Shown here piece by piece: positions 794 to 8,039 of a DNA stretch of 38,403 nucleotides; the first letter of the stretch is position 1; the number at the start of each line of letters is the position of its first letter. Made by a program: the position numbers and the translations under genes. Location: positions 1 to 38,403 of the forward strand of contig JAJRUD010000268.1 of NCBI GenBank assembly GCA_024277995.1, given 5' to 3'. This DNA is from Chloroflexota bacterium (GTDB lineage: Bacteria > Chloroflexota > Anaerolineae > Anaerolineales > E44-bin32). Under the pieces are notes generated by a model. The model was not told where the DNA came from, did no database searches, and saw only the letters and a program-made list of their open reading frames with translations.

Positions 794-1063
794 TCAATGC
801 GCCTCGAACTCCCCCATCTGCTGCACGTCCACGGGCACACCCTCGATCTCCTGAGGAACCAGATCACCCTCGGCCAGTTGGGCGCGCGGCACCTTGCGGC
901 TCACCATGACCACGAGCGCCACCTCGCCCGTGTCCTCTCCCCCTCGCTGGCGCAGGCCCACGCCCACCCCCACCACGTTGGCCTTGCCGAGCAGTTCATC
1001 CCTATGGGCCTGCAGCACCTGCCTGGCCCGCTCGATCGCCCGCTGGCGCCCCTCGTCGCTCAC
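794..1063 (-). CDS. Small stand-alone protein homologous to the N-terminal domain of the adjacent trypsin-like protease
   Basis: 89 aa with GTG start overlapping the upstream TGA stop (GTGA). ELLGKANVVGVGVGLR...VMVSRKVPRAQL...VPQEIEGVPVDVQQMGEFEAH aligns with ELLAKPNVVGIGTGYR...ALVRRKIPRSAL...VPSRVEGVRTDVIQVGRLRAQ of the next protein. Confidence 0.8.
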   Translation of the reverse strand: MSDEGRQRAIERARQVLQAHRDELLGKANVVGVGVGLRQRGGEDTGEVALVVMVSRKVPRAQLAEGDLVPQEIEGVPVDVQQMGEFEAH

Positions 1064-2064
1064 AGCACAACCTCCAGCGCGTCCAGGACGCGTTGAATGG
1101 GATTGAATATGGTGGCTTCCTCGGAACCGGCGAAGAGCAGCCCGACGGCCAGCAGGCCGTTCCCCGCCACCAGCAGCGAGCCCGAGTCGCCCGGGCTGGA
1201 CATGGGCGTCGTGACGATCTGGCCCTCGAAACGCGCCAGCCTGCCGTCGTAGCCCACCTCCAGGATGGCATCCAGCACGCGCACGGTGCCCGTGGTGAAG
1301 CCCGTCGAGCGCCCCGACTTGCGCACCCCCATCCCCAGGGTCGCCGGCGCCGTGCCTCCCACCACGCCGATGTCCAGGATCTCGTCCAGGACCACGCCCT
1401 CCTCCACGGGGCGTGCCACCGCGGCGTCCACCCAGTTGGAGGCCCCGGGGTCGCTGCGGTATGCCTGCAGGCGATGCCTGGAACCCAACAATCGGGCCAG
1501 CAGGTTGACCAGGTCGGTGAAGGCCTGCGCCGTGCGGCAGGTGGCCGGCTCGCGCTTGAAGCGAATGGGGATGAAGCGCGCCAGCCTGGCGATGGTGTCC
1601 TGCTCCCGCCGGCCGCCGTCCACCGCGCCCGGCTGCAGGATGGCGTCACCCGGCTGCGCCTGGTTGCTGTTGGCCAGCACGTGATTGTTGGAGAGGATCA
1701 GGCGCTCGCCGCTGGCCCGATCGCGCACCACCACCCCGAAGGTCCCCGCCGTGACGCGATAATGTCCCAGGCTGACTCCGCCCGGCGCGGGCCGCCAACG
1801 GCCGGTGCGCGATGCCTGGGCCCGCAGCCGGCCCACCTGAATGACGTCCGTGCGCACGCCCTCCACCCTGCTGGGCACCATCGACTTCGGCGTGAGCGCC
1901 GACCGGGGGATCTTACGGCGCACCAACGCCATCAGGCACAGCTCATCGGTCACCTTGCCGCGCGTCTCACGGTAGCCGGTGCCTATGCCCACCACGTTGG
2001 GCTTCGCCAGCAACTCCTCCTTATAGCGCTCCTTGACGGCGGCCACGTCCTTCGGCTGCGCCAT
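1060..2064 (-). CDS. Trypsin-like serine protease with N-terminal NVVGxGxG domain
   Basis: NNHVLANSN (catalytic His region) and PGDSGSLLV (catalytic Ser). Start taken at MAQPKDV. No signal peptide is evident. Confidence 0.85.
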   Translation of the reverse strand: MAQPKDVAAVKERYKEELLAKPNVVGIGTGYRETRGKVTDELCLMALVRRKIPRSALTPKSMVPSRVEGVRTDVIQVGRLRAQASRTGRWRPAPGGVSLGHYRVTAGTFGVVVRDRASGERLILSNNHVLANSNQAQPGDAILQPGAVDGGRREQDTIARLARFIPIRFKREPATCRTAQAFTDLVNLLARLLGSRHRLQAYRSDPGASNWVDAAVARPVEEGVVLDEILDIGVVGGTAPATLGMGVRKSGRSTGFTTGTVRVLDAILEVGYDGRLARFEGQIVTTPMSSPGDSGSLLVAGNGLLAVGLLFAGSEEATIFNPIQRVLDALEVVL

Positions 2065-2256: not shown

Positions 2257-3654
2257 TCACATGTGAATGGCGTGGCCCTCCGCGGCGTGCGCCGCCTCCA
2301 TGAGCACCTCGCTCAAGGTGGGATGCGCGTGCACGTTGCGGCCGATCTCGGCCGGGGTGAGCTCCATCATCTGTGCCAGCGTCAATTCCGGCAGCAGTTC
2401 CGTCACCTCCGGCCCGACCATGTGCGCGCCCAGGATCTCGCCGTAGCGGGCGTCCACCACCAGCTTGACCCAGCCCGCGTAGTCGCCCAGACCCAGTGCC
2501 TTTCCGTTGGCCTGGAAGGGGAAGCGCCCGACCTTGACCTCCAGGCCCCGTTCTTTGGCCTGGGCCTCGGTGAGACCAAAGGAGGCCACCTGGGGCTGGC
2601 TGTAAGTGGCGCGCGGCATCATCTCGTATTCCAGTTTCACCGTCTCGACGCCGGCGATGTGCTCGGCGCAGACGACACCCATGGCCGAGGCCACGTGGGC
2701 CAGCATCAGCTTGCCCGTCACGTCGCCGATGGCCCACACGCCCGGGACGTTGGTGGCCATACGGTCGTCGATGACCACGCGGCCGTGCTCGTCCAGCGCC
2801 ACGCCCGCCGCCTCCAGCCCCAGGCCCTCCGTGTTGGGCTTGAAACCGATGGCGACCAGCACCTGCTCGGCCTCCAGCCTCTGCTCGCCATCCTCTCCCG
2901 ACACCTTCACTTTGACCTTGGTCTTGAGGACCTCGACCTCTTCGACGCGCGTTCCCGTGAGGACCTTGATGCCGCGCTTGGAGAAGGCCTTGGCCAGCTC
3001 CTTGCCGATCTCCTCGTCCTCCAGGGGCGCCAGGCGCGGCAGCATCTCCACGATGGTGACCTGCGAGCCATAGGCGTCCCACACCGTGGCGAACTCCAGC
3101 CCGATGGCACCGGCGCCCACGATGATCACCGATTTGGGCAGCCTGTCCTGCAGGATGGCCTGGCGATAGGTGAGCACGCGCTCGCCGTCGGACTCGACCC
3201 CCGGGAGCATCATCGGCTTGGCGCCGGTGGCGATGACGACGTCCTTGGCCTGGATCTCCATCACGCTCCCGTCCTCGGCCGTCACCTGCAGGCTGTGCGG
3301 GCCGGTGAACCGCGCCCTGCCCATGTGGACATCGATCTTGTTCTTCTTCATCAAGAAGCCCACGCCCTTCACCAGGCGATTGGCCACCTGACGGCTGCGC
3401 TTGACGGCGGCGGCATAGTCCAGTTTGAGGCCCTCCACCTGGAAGCCAAACTCCTTTCCCCGCTCGCGCAGGGTGTGCGCAACTTCGGCGTTCTTGAGCA
3501 GCGCCTTGGAGGGGATGCAGCCCACGTTGAGGCATACGCCGCCCAGCCACTCACGGTCAATTACGGCCGTCTTCTTTCCCAACTGCGCGGCACGGATGGC
3601 GCATACGTAGCCGCCCGGTCCGGCGCCGATCACCACGACGTCATATTCCGGCAT
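2257..3654 (-). CDS. lpdA: Dihydrolipoyl dehydrogenase (E3)
   Basis: [37 protein letters not shown] redox disulfide, C-terminal [14 protein letters not shown]. Confidence 0.97.
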
Positions 3655-3782
3655 GGATGGATCCTCCTTGATGAGCCGGCCCCTCGTAGGCCGGCGAAGT
3701 TCATTGCGCTATCGACGGAGCGTACCTCGTGGCCATCACTCTCAGCCCAGGGCGGCGAGTGCAGCCATACAACTTCGATCTC

Positions 3783-5114
3783 TCAGGCCCAGCTTTCCAG
3801 GCGCATCACCACCAGCCCCAGGAATTGATCCGCCACCGCGCCGTCCAGGATTCGGTGGTCGAAGGTCAGGGTGAGGTAGACCATGGGGCGGATGGCGATG
3901 AGGTCCTGCGTCCCGCCATCGCCCTCGGAGCTTTCGATGACCACAACTCGCTTCTGGATCTTGCCCACTCCCAGGATAGCACACTGCGGTTGGTTGATGA
4001 TGGGCGTGGCGAAGAGCGAACCGCCCACGCCGTGGTTGGTGATGGTGAAGGTCCCACCCTGCACCTCCGCGGGGCTCAGTTGGCCGCTGCGGGCGCGAGT
4101 GGACAGATCCTGAACGGCGCGCGCCAGGCCGCGCAGGGACATCTGATCGGCCTCTTTGATCACGGGGACGATCAGTCCCCGCTCGCCAAGCGAGACGGCC
4201 ACGCCCACGTTCACCGCCCCATGCAGCACGATGCCTTCGTCGCTCCAGGACGAATTGGCCATGGGCACGGCGCGCAGAGCTTCAGCGGCTGCGGCCACGA
4301 AGTAGGGCGTGTAGGTCAGGTTGATCCCCTCGTGAGCGAAGTCCTCCTTGTGGTTGCGGCGATGAGCCATCACCCGGCTCATGTCCGCCTCCATGATGGT
4401 GGAGACGTGGGGGCTGATTCGCTTGGAGCGCACCATGTGCTCGGCGATGGACCGGCGCACGACGTCCAGCGGCTGCACCGTGCCGGGGAGGGCGCGCGCC
4501 TCGGCCTCCGGCTGCGAGGCGGGAGGCCTGGCCCCGCCGAAGACCTCCTCGCTGGGGCGGAACAATTCGCCGCTGCCCGGCTGCTCCCAGGCGGGAGCCG
4601 CCGGCGCTGGCCCCGCCGGGCGTGATTCGAGATAGGCCAGCATGTCCTTCTTGGTGATGCGCCCGCCGCGGCCGGTGCCCCGGACCTGGGTCAGGTCCAC
4701 TTTGTGCTCGGCGGCGATGCGCGCCACCACCGGGGAGATGAACCCCAGGTCCGCCTGGCGTCCGGGCCTGGGAGGGGACGGCGCGACGGATGAGACGGGC
4801 GTCGCTTCGACCGCGGCCGGTGCGCTCACCGGCATCGTTGCCCCGGCGACCTCGGGGGCCTCGGGGATCTCCTCTCCCGGCTCACCGATCACCGCCAGCA
4901 GTGTCCCGGCCTGCACCGTCTGCCCTTCGCCCACGTACACCTTGAGCAGCGTGCCGGCGGCCGGTGAGGGCACCTCGGTGTCCACCTTGTCGGTGTTGAT
5001 CTCCAGCAGCGGCTCGAATTCCTCGACCTGCTCGCCCTCTCGCTTGAGCCATTTGGTGACCGTGCCTTCGACCACCGATTCGCCCAGGCGTGGCATGATG
5101 ACCTTCGTCGTCAT
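3783..5114 (-). CDS. 2-oxo acid dehydrogenase E2 (dihydrolipoamide acyltransferase)
   Basis: Single lipoyl domain (EINTDKVDTEVPSPAAG), peripheral subunit-binding domain (ISPVVARIAAEHKVDLTQVRGTGRGGRITKKDML), catalytic DHRILDGAVADQFL. Confidence 0.97.
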   Translation of the reverse strand: MTTKVIMPRLGESVVEGTVTKWLKREGEQVEEFEPLLEINTDKVDTEVPSPAAGTLLKVYVGEGQTVQAGTLLAVIGEPGEEIPEAPEVAGATMPVSAPAAVEATPVSSVAPSPPRPGRQADLGFISPVVARIAAEHKVDLTQVRGTGRGGRITKKDMLAYLESRPAGPAPAAPAWEQPGSGELFRPSEEVFGGARPPASQPEAEARALPGTVQPLDVVRRSIAEHMVRSKRISPHVSTIMEADMSRVMAHRRNHKEDFAHEGINLTYTPYFVAAAAEALRAVPMANSSWSDEGIVLHGAVNVGVAVSLGERGLIVPVIKEADQMSLRGLARAVQDLSTRARSGQLSPAEVQGGTFTITNHGVGGSLFATPIINQPQCAILGVGKIQKRVVVIESSEGDGGTQDLIAIRPMVYLTLTFDHRILDGAVADQFLGLVVMRLESWA

Positions 5115-5217
5115 GGAGCCCTATCCTCCCTCACAGGACGGGGAACCAGGCTTGGGGGCGGAAGAAGGTGGACCCAGCCCCCGTCTCTCCCATCCTCCGT
5201 CCCCTGTCTCCCGTCAA

Positions 5218-6204
5218 TCAATACGCATCCAGTTCGCGAATGGCCGCGGCGATCTTTTCCGCGTTCGGCATGAACCAATCCTGCAGCGGGCGGCTGTAGG
5301 GCACCGCCGGGACATCCGGTCCAGCCAGTCGACGGACAGGCGCATCCAGGTCGGTAAAGGCCTGCTCGGCCAGCAGGGCAGCGATTTCCGCGCCGTAGCC
5401 GCCCGTCAGGTTGTCCTCGTAGACGATGAGCGCTTTCCCCGTCTTGCGCACCGAGCCCAGCACAGTTTCCCTGTCCAGCGGGTTCAACGTGCGCAGATCC
5501 ACCACTTCCACCTCGATGCCCTCGGCGGCCACCTGCTGCGCGGCCTGCAAGGAGTAATGGTGCATCATTCCGTAGGCGAACAGGCTCAGGTCGCGTCCCT
5601 CCCTGGAGACGCGCGCCTTGCCGATGGGCACCAGCACCTCCTCGTCCTCGGGCACGGCGCCGCGGATGAGACGATAGCCCTTCTTCGGCTCCAGGTAGAG
5701 CACGGGGTTCGGATCGCGCACGGCGGCTTTCAGCAGCCCCTTGGCATCGTAGGGATTGGAGGGCACCACCACCTTCAGGCCGGGCACGTGCGCGAAGAAG
5801 GCTTCCACCGACTGCGAGTGATACAGGCCGCCGCCGATGCCGCCGCCGTAGGGCGCCCGGATGACCATGGGGGCCGTCCATTCGCCGTTGGACCTGTAGC
5901 ACATTTTGGCGGCCTCGTTGACGATCTGGTTGAAGGCCGGGTGGATGAAGTCGGCGAACTGGATCTCACAGATGGGCCGCATGCCGTAGAGCGCGGCGCC
6001 GATGCCCACACCCACGATGGAGAGCTCGGCCAGCGGCGAGTCGATGACACGCTCGGGGCCGTATTTCTCGTAGAGACCCTGGGTGGCGCGGAAGACGCCG
6101 CCGCGCCGCCCCACGTCCTCGCCCACGATGAACACACGCTCGTCGCGCGCCAGTTCTTCATCCATGGCCTGGCGGATGCCTTCGATGAGCGTGATCTCAG
6201 GCAT
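5218..6204 (-). CDS. 2-oxo acid dehydrogenase E1 beta subunit
   Basis: MPEITLIEGIRQAMDEELARDERVFIVGEDVG; transketolase-like. The start overlaps the end of the E1alpha gene by 8 nt. Confidence 0.95.
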   Translation of the reverse strand: MPEITLIEGIRQAMDEELARDERVFIVGEDVGRRGGVFRATQGLYEKYGPERVIDSPLAELSIVGVGIGAALYGMRPICEIQFADFIHPAFNQIVNEAAKMCYRSNGEWTAPMVIRAPYGGGIGGGLYHSQSVEAFFAHVPGLKVVVPSNPYDAKGLLKAAVRDPNPVLYLEPKKGYRLIRGAVPEDEEVLVPIGKARVSREGRDLSLFAYGMMHHYSLQAAQQVAAEGIEVEVVDLRTLNPLDRETVLGSVRKTGKALIVYEDNLTGGYGAEIAALLAEQAFTDLDAPVRRLAGPDVPAVPYSRPLQDWFMPNAEKIAAAIRELDAY

Positions 6205-7231
6205 GATGGACATCCTCTACATAGACCGGATGGGCGGCCTCAGAGACCTCGGGGTAGGGCGCGGCCTCGGCGAAGGCCACCGCCTGCTCCACCTGCTGTT
6301 TGGCTTGCGCCTCCATCTCCGCTACGACCTCCGCGCTGAGAACGGATTGAGAGCGCAGGAATTCGCGAAAGCTGCCGAGCGGGTCGCGGGCCTTCATCGC
6401 CTCCACATCCTCACGCGTGCGGTAGGTGCGATCGTCGTCGTCCGATGAGTGGGGAGTCATGCGAAAGACCCTGGCCTCGACCAGCGTCGGGCCCTCGCCG
6501 GCCCGGGCACGGGCAGCGGCGGCGGCGACCGCCTGGTACACCTGCAGCGGATCCAGCCCATCCACCGTGACGCCCGGCAAACCCAGGCCGGCGGCCTTGT
6601 CGGCCGCGTTCTCCACCGCCATCTGATGCTCCTGCGGCACAGATATGGCGAAGCGATTGTTCTCCACGAAGAAGATCACCGGCAGTCTGTGCACTGCCGC
6701 CCAGTTTACGCCCTCGTACCACTCCCCCTGAGAGGTGGACCCCTCGCCGACGCTGGTCAGTACCACTGCATCATCGCCGCGCATCTTGATCGCCAGGCCG
6801 ATCCCCGCCGCGTGGGAGGTCTGGGTGGCGACTGGCGAGGAATGGCTGACCACGTTGGCGCGCCGCAGGCTCCAGTGGCTGGGCATCTGGCGCCCGCCCG
6901 AGGAGGGTTCGCCTTTCTTGCCCATGAGCCCCAGGGCGAACTCGCGCGCTGTGAGCCCCAGCGCCAGCGTCATGGCCAGGTCGCGGTAATAGGGCAGGAC
7001 CCAATCATGGCCGCGGCGCAGCGCGAAGGCCGCCCCCACCTGGGCCGCCTCATGCCCGATGCCTGAGATGTGGAAGGCGATTTTTCCCTGGCGGTGCAGC
7101 ACCCAGGCGCGTTCGTCCAGTCGACGCGCCAGCAGCATGATCCAGTAAATCTCGCGCAGGGTCTCCTTCTTGAGTTTCGCTTCGGTACCTGTCACAACCA
7201 TCCAGGGGTCTCCTTGCGGAATCCGCTTCAT
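6197..7231 (-). CDS. 2-oxo acid dehydrogenase E1 alpha subunit, branched-chain-like
   Basis: TPP-binding region GEGSTSQGEWYEGVNWAAVHRLPVIFFVENN. The HSSDDDDRTYR segment resembles BCKDH E1alpha. Start taken at MKRIPQGDPW. Confidence 0.93.
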   Translation of the reverse strand: MKRIPQGDPWMVVTGTEAKLKKETLREIYWIMLLARRLDERAWVLHRQGKIAFHISGIGHEAAQVGAAFALRRGHDWVLPYYRDLAMTLALGLTAREFALGLMGKKGEPSSGGRQMPSHWSLRRANVVSHSSPVATQTSHAAGIGLAIKMRGDDAVVLTSVGEGSTSQGEWYEGVNWAAVHRLPVIFFVENNRFAISVPQEHQMAVENAADKAAGLGLPGVTVDGLDPLQVYQAVAAAAARARAGEGPTLVEARVFRMTPHSSDDDDRTYRTREDVEAMKARDPLGSFREFLRSQSVLSAEVVAEMEAQAKQQVEQAVAFAEAAPYPEVSEAAHPVYVEDVHHA

Positions 7232-7253
7232 CGGGCTCGTCCGAGAGGTAGGA

Positions 7254-8039
7254 CTATCCCTCCTGCCGCTCCCAAAGCTCGAACAGCTTCCTGTAGTGCT
7301 CCGGATAATCACCTGTGTAGCGCAGAAAGCGCGGCACTGGGTAGCGCACGCCTCCCCTGTGGGTGCCCTCCAGCCCCTCCAGGATCATTGCTACCTTGGA
7401 GGCCGGGATGGTGAAGGCCATTTCGTCGTCCCCCGCCTGCCCGAATACCCGATCGCCGTAGCAGGGCAGGATCACCTGACATTCGTCGTGCTTCATGGTG
7501 GTGATGACCGCGTCGGCACAATCGACCCGCCCGGATAAGGAAGAGGCAATCCGTCCGCCGGTGGCCCACAGGCGCGCCGTCACCAGCCGCATGACTTGAG
7601 CGCTGTTGGCGTAGATCAGAATGATATGCGGGGCGAAGGCCGTTCGATGGAGCGGCGCGACCTCCACTCCCGCCCATTGGCCATATTCCCAGCAATCCGT
7701 CTGCGCCTCCGTGACCGCTCCTTCGCGGGCCGTTCGGGTGTACATCCCGGCGCAGAGTCTGCCCTCCAGGACGTAATCCAGCATAGGCTTGAAGCCCCAC
7801 ACGGCCAGGGCAGGCGGGCAGGCGATATCCTCCGCCTGCATCCCCACCGCCCAACCGTAGTGACGCGCGATGGCGAACCCCTGGCAGATGGCGACCTGCT
7901 GGCCCAGGTCCCGCCTGGGGCGCTTAGTCCGCTCGGAAAAGGATTCCCCCTCGGCCAGCATGCGGACAGCGAGGGGGAAAGTGGACAGTCGAAGGTGTTT
8001 TGCCAGCGCCTCATCGAGGCCGGCCAGGTCGAGGCTCAT
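7254..8039 (-). CDS. DUF169 family protein
   Basis: MSLDLAGLDEALAKHLRLSTFPLAVRML...VAICQGFAIARHYG...LPCYGDRVFGQAGDDEMAFTIPASK matches the DUF169 style from memory. Short gap to E1alpha suggests co-transcription. Confidence 0.8.
   Translation of the reverse strand: MSLDLAGLDEALAKHLRLSTFPLAVRMLAEGESFSERTKRPRRDLGQQVAICQGFAIARHYGWAVGMQAEDIACPPALAVWGFKPMLDYVLEGRLCAGMYTRTAREGAVTEAQTDCWEYGQWAGVEVAPLHRTAFAPHIILIYANSAQVMRLVTARLWATGGRIASSLSGRVDCADAVITTMKHDECQVILPCYGDRVFGQAGDDEMAFTIPASKVAMILEGLEGTHRGGVRYPVPRFLRYTGDYPEHYRKLFELWERQEG

Follow-up and report, generated by a model that had tools for sequence, protein, structure and literature searches.

NAL1 and other proteases with N-terminal modules

NARROW LEAF 1 (NAL1) is the leaf-width and yield protein of rice and an agronomically important plant protease. 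In rice NAL1 and maize ZmNAL1a, an NAL1_N domain (PF25608) is followed by a trypsin-fold protease domain (Nal1_C, PF25819), the same arrangement as in the bacterial protease described here. Both plant enzymes degrade TOPLESS-type corepressors, according to PMC12915138, which cites Li et al. 2023. The open-access literature that could be found states no function for the N-terminal domain of plant NAL1 and makes no mention of PF25608. It also yielded no description of a stand-alone NAL1_N partner of plant NAL1, or of stand-alone NAL1_N proteins in general.

The pro region of alpha-lytic protease and streptogrisin (PF02983, Pro_Al_protease) is likewise located N-terminal to a related chymotrypsin-fold domain. 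This type of pro region acts as a steric chaperone (PMC3352829). However, the alpha-lytic pro region is cleaved from a secreted enzyme, whereas NAL1_N is retained in the solved structure of rice NAL1 and the bacterial protease appears to be cytosolic. A second point of comparison is SUB1-ProM from Plasmodium, a subtilase propeptide-like protein and potent inhibitor of SUB1 (PMC6993865). Like the small protein that is the subject of this work, it is a detached copy of the N-terminal module of a protease and is encoded beside the protease genes. The two differ in protease clan and fold, and also in gene arrangement: unlike SUB1-ProM, the small bacterial gene overlaps its protease gene in the lineage studied here and is fused to it or unlinked elsewhere.

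The gene pair in the window

The window, i.e. the whole stretch of 38,403 nucleotides that was analyzed, stems from a Chloroflexota bacterium and carries two overlapping genes on its minus strand. The first (1060..2064, ATG start) encodes an apparently cytosolic, NAL1-like serine protease of 334 aa with a predicted trypsin fold, recognized from the ORF and from Pfam and PDB sequence matches. Its NAL1_N domain spans residues ~14-83 (1816..2025, minus strand; BLASTP and PF25608). A second in-frame ATG is present at 2100, but conservation starts only at 2064. The second gene (794..1063, minus strand, GTG start) encodes a stand-alone NAL1_N protein of 89 aa, hereafter the singleton, which was recognized with PF25608, AF2 and Foldseek. 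A genome scan found no NAL1_N copies in the window's genome other than these two.

The start codon of the singleton and the stop codon of the protease share 4 nt in a GTGA overlap (1060..1063, minus strand), and this offset of -4, common to relatives, suggests translational coupling. Within the 3' end of the protease gene, a GGAGG (1071..1075, minus strand) lies 7 nt ahead of the GTG and may serve as ribosome-binding site. Upstream of the protease, co-directional genes occupy 2257..7312 of the minus strand; from a reading of their translations, these would encode E3, E2, E1-beta and E1-alpha of a 2-oxoacid dehydrogenase. A preliminary description of the locus had placed both ORFs and the GTGA overlap at these same positions and had found neither protein to carry a signal peptide. 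Both points hold, the latter in that none is evident upon reading the two sequences.

Family and catalytic residues of the protease

The predicted catalytic triad of the protease consists of H128 (codon 1681-1683), D213 (1426-1428) and S294 (1183-1185), and the GDSG motif is present. All three residues are invariant in an alignment of 18 relatives. The NAL1_N model (PF25608) is matched by all 18 proteases and all 21 singletons of the alignments, while the window protease scores 24.4 bits with hmmscan and 27.2 bits in the genome scan, around the cut-off of 27. For the catalytic domain, Nal1_C and Trypsin_2 give weak matches in the window protease and stronger ones in its relatives: Nal1_C matches 15 of the 18 (best 8e-7), as opposed to 0.034 for the window protease itself. 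A PDB sequence search with the window protease returned NAL1 and streptogrisin B. After NAL1, the nearest neighbor of the catalytic domain is streptogrisin/alpha-lytic protease, both in this search and in the Foldseek search with a fusion model (see below). On the basis of the NAL1_N domain and the predicted Ser-His-Asp trypsin-fold catalytic domain, the window protease can be assigned to the NAL1-like family. In one related locus (L208, G204:C9) the protease frame is broken between the N-domain and the catalytic part, by a frameshift or an assembly error, and the singleton is intact.

The singleton as paralogue of the protease N-domain

The preliminary description had noted that the small ORF resembles the protease N-terminus. 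Indeed, BLASTP aligns residues 20-89 of the singleton (numbered 19-88 in the translated query) with protease residues 14-83, at 31 identities over 70 positions (44%, E=5e-19). The singleton also matches PF25608 with 30.3 bits, above the cut-off of 27 bits. Some positions nevertheless distinguish the two types. Where the proteases have Thr in 94% (T76 of the window protease), the singletons have Val; Val/Ile of the proteases (I79) is replaced by Gln, and Lys by Arg at the position aligned to R36. These type-specific residues suggest that the surface of the singleton has diverged from that of the protease N-domain.

Close relatives and probable translational coupling

Those relatives that bear a name are MAGs from the Anaerolineae/Anaerolineales, within the Chloroflexota. 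Within the GTDB family of the window, 21 of the 27 genomes (the window's own included) contain the NAL1_N domain, mostly in two copies. In 21/21 testable pairs, the singleton starts with ATG or GTG and overlaps the end of the protease gene by exactly 4 nt; 20 of these pairs belong to this family and one (L021) to another family of the order. A frame or assembly artefact could be dismissed, as the same junction recurs in all 21 independent genomes.

Among all non-redundant pairs with the singleton downstream, the start codon is found at exactly -4 in 34 of 57. A GGAG or GAGG motif precedes the singleton start in 12 of 38 coupled pairs, that of the window included. Because the motif is limited to these 12, a strong Shine-Dalgarno sequence was rejected as a general rule for the coupled gene, and termination-reinitiation is the likely mode of singleton translation in most coupled pairs, as far as can be read from their sequences.

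The singletons of the relatives are 46-60% identical to that of the window. The dN/dS values amount to 0.07-0.39 for the singletons and 0.06-0.19 for the proteases; the singletons are under purifying selection. A recent partial duplication or pseudogene fragment was rejected on account of this identity, the dN/dS below 1 and the single deep split in the domain tree described below.

The E3 gene upstream of the pair is shared with 8 named close relatives (72-77% identity) and is not kept beyond them. A shared operon role with the 2-oxoacid dehydrogenase was discarded, since this neighbor is common to close relatives only. The clustering of flanking ORFs returned heterogeneous groups, a part of which seemed to consist of shadow ORFs on the antisense strand.

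Wider distribution and co-occurrence

An HMM built from the singletons matched in 81 genomes of a class-wide sample of 299. Exactly one protease and one singleton are present in 64 genomes. In 36 of these the two genes share a strand, with the singleton just upstream; another 9 are also linked, 8 with the singleton just downstream and one (G353) with a larger spacing. Linkage is thus found in 45/64, and all testable pairs in the family of the window are linked. The preliminary description had considered mostly unlinked singletons as damaging to its reading of the pair, and the HMM search and adjacency count gave the opposite outcome. In G353 (L201) the singleton precedes the protease by ~4.3 kb, both being encoded on one strand, and this arrangement is intermediate between linked and unlinked.

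In the other 19 of the 64 genomes both genes are present and unlinked. In one of them, the single-contig genome G070, protease and singleton are 2.6 Mb apart. Some genomes of the class contain the protease without a singleton. The reverse, a singleton without a protease, was found among the 299 genomes only in G162 and G297, in both cases at a contig end. The co-occurrence has a Fisher p=1e-48, a figure that is indicative only, as the genomes are related.

Outside the class, the proteases of KSB1, Thermodesulfobacteriota and some Bacillota mostly occur without a detectable singleton. As many proteases from other phyla do so, the singleton would not be needed for protease folding in general. 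Two KSB1/Calditrichota genomes, otherwise scored as lacking the singleton, display weak extra NAL1_N matches away from the main protease (G360:C39:35651-36962 and G356:C37:8733-8939). In G360, a short NAL1_N match is situated ~0.8 kb after a second, longer NAL1_N frame.

Natural fusions and evolution of the pair

Among the named loci, a set apart from the class sample, four have the two genes naturally fused into one NAL1_N-protease-NAL1_N chain, in which the singleton domain is C-terminal (L040:3971-5272, L042:4001-5308, L046:4001-5275 and L047:779-2083). Genome G377 (RBG_16_57_11) has a fusion and, in addition, an overlapping pair of separate genes.

A tree was built from 42 N-domains of proteases and 42 domains of singletons or fusions. 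The two types are divided by a single branch, with an ultrafast bootstrap of 98 and an SH-aLRT of 99. A quick tree with more domains (204) gave the same split, save for a few stray rows. This single branch indicates that the singleton is the product of an ancient duplication of the NAL1_N domain, rather than a recent fragment. The fusions are secondary, given that their C-terminal domains sit within the downstream singletons in the 204-domain tree.

In the protease tree, the order with the singleton upstream is confined to one side of a branch with a support of 99. By parsimony, the gene arrangement changed at least 15 times on this tree, with branches of good support requiring no fewer than 5 separate origins of the unlinked state. 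Since the pair is retained in these repeated unlinked cases, loss of the operon does not entail loss of the partner.

Predicted structures

The AF2 model of the singleton alone (pLDDT 87, pTM 0.74) consists of one long helix (residues 3-25) and three strands (30-40, 43-54 and 76-82). In a Foldseek search of the PDB, the rice NAL1 chains come first: the model matches their N-domain with TMq values mostly of 0.6-0.76. The structure prediction proposed in the preliminary description thus links the 89-aa protein to the N-domain of rice NAL1.

The next matches of high probability, and the only ones outside NAL1, are pro regions of alpha-lytic protease. Their Foldseek probabilities are 0.96 (3pro_C), 0.89 (4pro_D), 0.84 (2pro_C) and 0.77 (3pro_D), but the fold scores are marginal, with E-values of 0.08-0.16 and TM-scores (TMq) of 0.41-0.48. 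Sequence homology to these pro regions was rejected: neither the Pfam scans nor a PDB profile search at E<=10 matched NAL1_N with PF02983. A search for PF02983 itself in 61 Chloroflexota genomes and controls gave no match anywhere. The proximity of the catalytic domain to streptogrisin/alpha-lytic protease makes a common ancestry of NAL1_N and the pro region plausible. It can be considered a fair hypothesis, based on the predicted fold and not supported by the sequence profiles.

The prodomain-like character that the preliminary description had attributed to the module would be favored by these marginal fold matches. The label "prodomain" may mislead, however, because the solved rice NAL1 chains hold NAL1_N and the catalytic domain together. 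The analogy with stand-alone inhibitors of the I9 type had to be given up, and a ferredoxin-like I9 fold was rejected for the singleton. The I9 model of Pfam matches neither the singleton nor the protease, and no I9 propeptide occurs among the best 50 PDB fold matches of the singleton.

The natural fusion L040 was folded from an alignment of 4 fused and 51 protease rows, yielding a pLDDT of 92.8 and a pTM of 0.79. A confident fold with such a pTM would be expected from uncertain placement of one or more of the domains. Singletons aligned with the fusion seem to fall on its N-domain and not on the C-terminal one (invariant columns 24-78). In the Foldseek comparison to NAL1 (E=4.5e-17), the model superimposes over ~380 columns at 23 A rmsd, with an identity of ~20%, which is low between the plant and bacterial proteins. 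The high rmsd over this length implies that the domain placement in the model differs from that in the NAL1 chains. No clear sign of the singleton domain docking on the protease was found in this predicted model.

Proposed function and alternatives

The singleton is very probably a dedicated partner of the protease. This conclusion, drawn from the gene sequences and their arrangement, follows from the homology, the stop-start overlap, the one-to-one co-occurrence, the fusions, the single split and the purifying selection. The companion role in the preliminary description therefore survives without its likeness to I9: the pair is conserved, one-to-one, adjacent in two gene orders and fused in four cases. 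Adjacency and fusion can, however, also reflect co-regulation without contact.

The mechanism proposed here would have started with the NAL1_N domain splitting off once, anciently, into a free-standing gene, the product of which would be co-translated with the protease via the stop-start overlap. The singleton would subsequently dock on the protease, presumably at or near the site used by the protease's own N-domain. Once docked, it may tune the activity much as a detached pro region would, by restraint, by assistance in folding, or by both. That the singleton binds the protease as dedicated partner and acts in this pro-region-like way, as inhibitor or chaperone, has about an even chance of being correct.

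The singleton could instead be an assembly subunit that joins the protease oligomer and sets the size of its ring or caps it, through NAL1_N-NAL1_N or NAL1_N-catalytic contacts, without being an inhibitor or chaperone. The PDB entries of rice NAL1 comprise 3 or 6 chains that include the N-domain. Rice NAL1 is reportedly a hexamer of two ATP-mediated trimers, which adds weight to this alternative, although the oligomer is known from rice and not from bacterial members. The deviating domain placement in the L040 model (23 A rmsd) would be compatible with docking between subunits, but may also simply be wrong given the pTM of 0.79. The natural fusions would fit a 1:1 subunit, while translational coupling does not fix the stoichiometry. 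Overall, an assembly role is possible but doubtful.

It is improbable that the singleton is an ancient NAL1_N protein with a function of its own, sharing regulation or ancestry with the protease and not acting on it. The 19 unlinked genomes, the seemingly exported singletons of Gammaproteobacteria next to a protease that is not (see below), and the L040 model with no firmly predicted interface would agree with such independence. On the other hand, singletons without a protease are limited to contig edges, and linkage recurs in two gene orders, in addition to fusion. About as improbable is a role as substrate adaptor, in which the singleton would recruit clients for delivery to the protease while docking by its NAL1_N surface: the one-to-one retention even when unlinked and the diverged surface would suit it, but the alignment of relatives shows the singleton to end where the NAL1_N domain ends, so that its 89 aa leave no second domain for a client.

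With the dedicated partner as preferred reading, the bacterial pair can be seen as a natural two-piece system in which NAL1_N can be added, removed or exchanged. The role of this domain is thereby directly testable by expression in E. coli. The pair is a candidate protease-regulator couple outside the I9 and serpin types. If trans control by a detached pro region is true, it would also hint at how the N-domain of plant NAL1 works. A broader and unlikely generalization is that a co-translated, stand-alone NAL1_N subunit controls the proteases of the NAL1 class in trans. This subunit would represent an intracellular detached pro region with alpha-lytic-like ancestry, older than the bacterial diversification of the family.

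Forms with a possible leader in Gammaproteobacteria and others

In Gammaproteobacteria, Myxococcota and others, the product of the gene downstream of the protease is a NAL1_N domain in shortened form, recognized by profile-profile comparison (probability 98.6, E=1e-15). If translation starts at -4 (ATG, GTG or TTG), the product would carry a hydrophobic, signal-peptide-like leader in eight loci (L068, L081, L082, L089, L090, L091, L100 and L105). The proteases of the same eight loci appear to have no leader upon reading, and a leader on the singleton but not on the protease would separate the two. In each of the eight, a second in-frame ATG or GTG is located just before the NAL1_N domain. From these start sites, the singleton may be made in two forms (dual localization), or the partners may be kept apart in those lineages. 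In an even draw of 143 gammaproteobacterial genomes, the starting genome included, the protease is present in 4, with an adjacent singleton in 3 of them.
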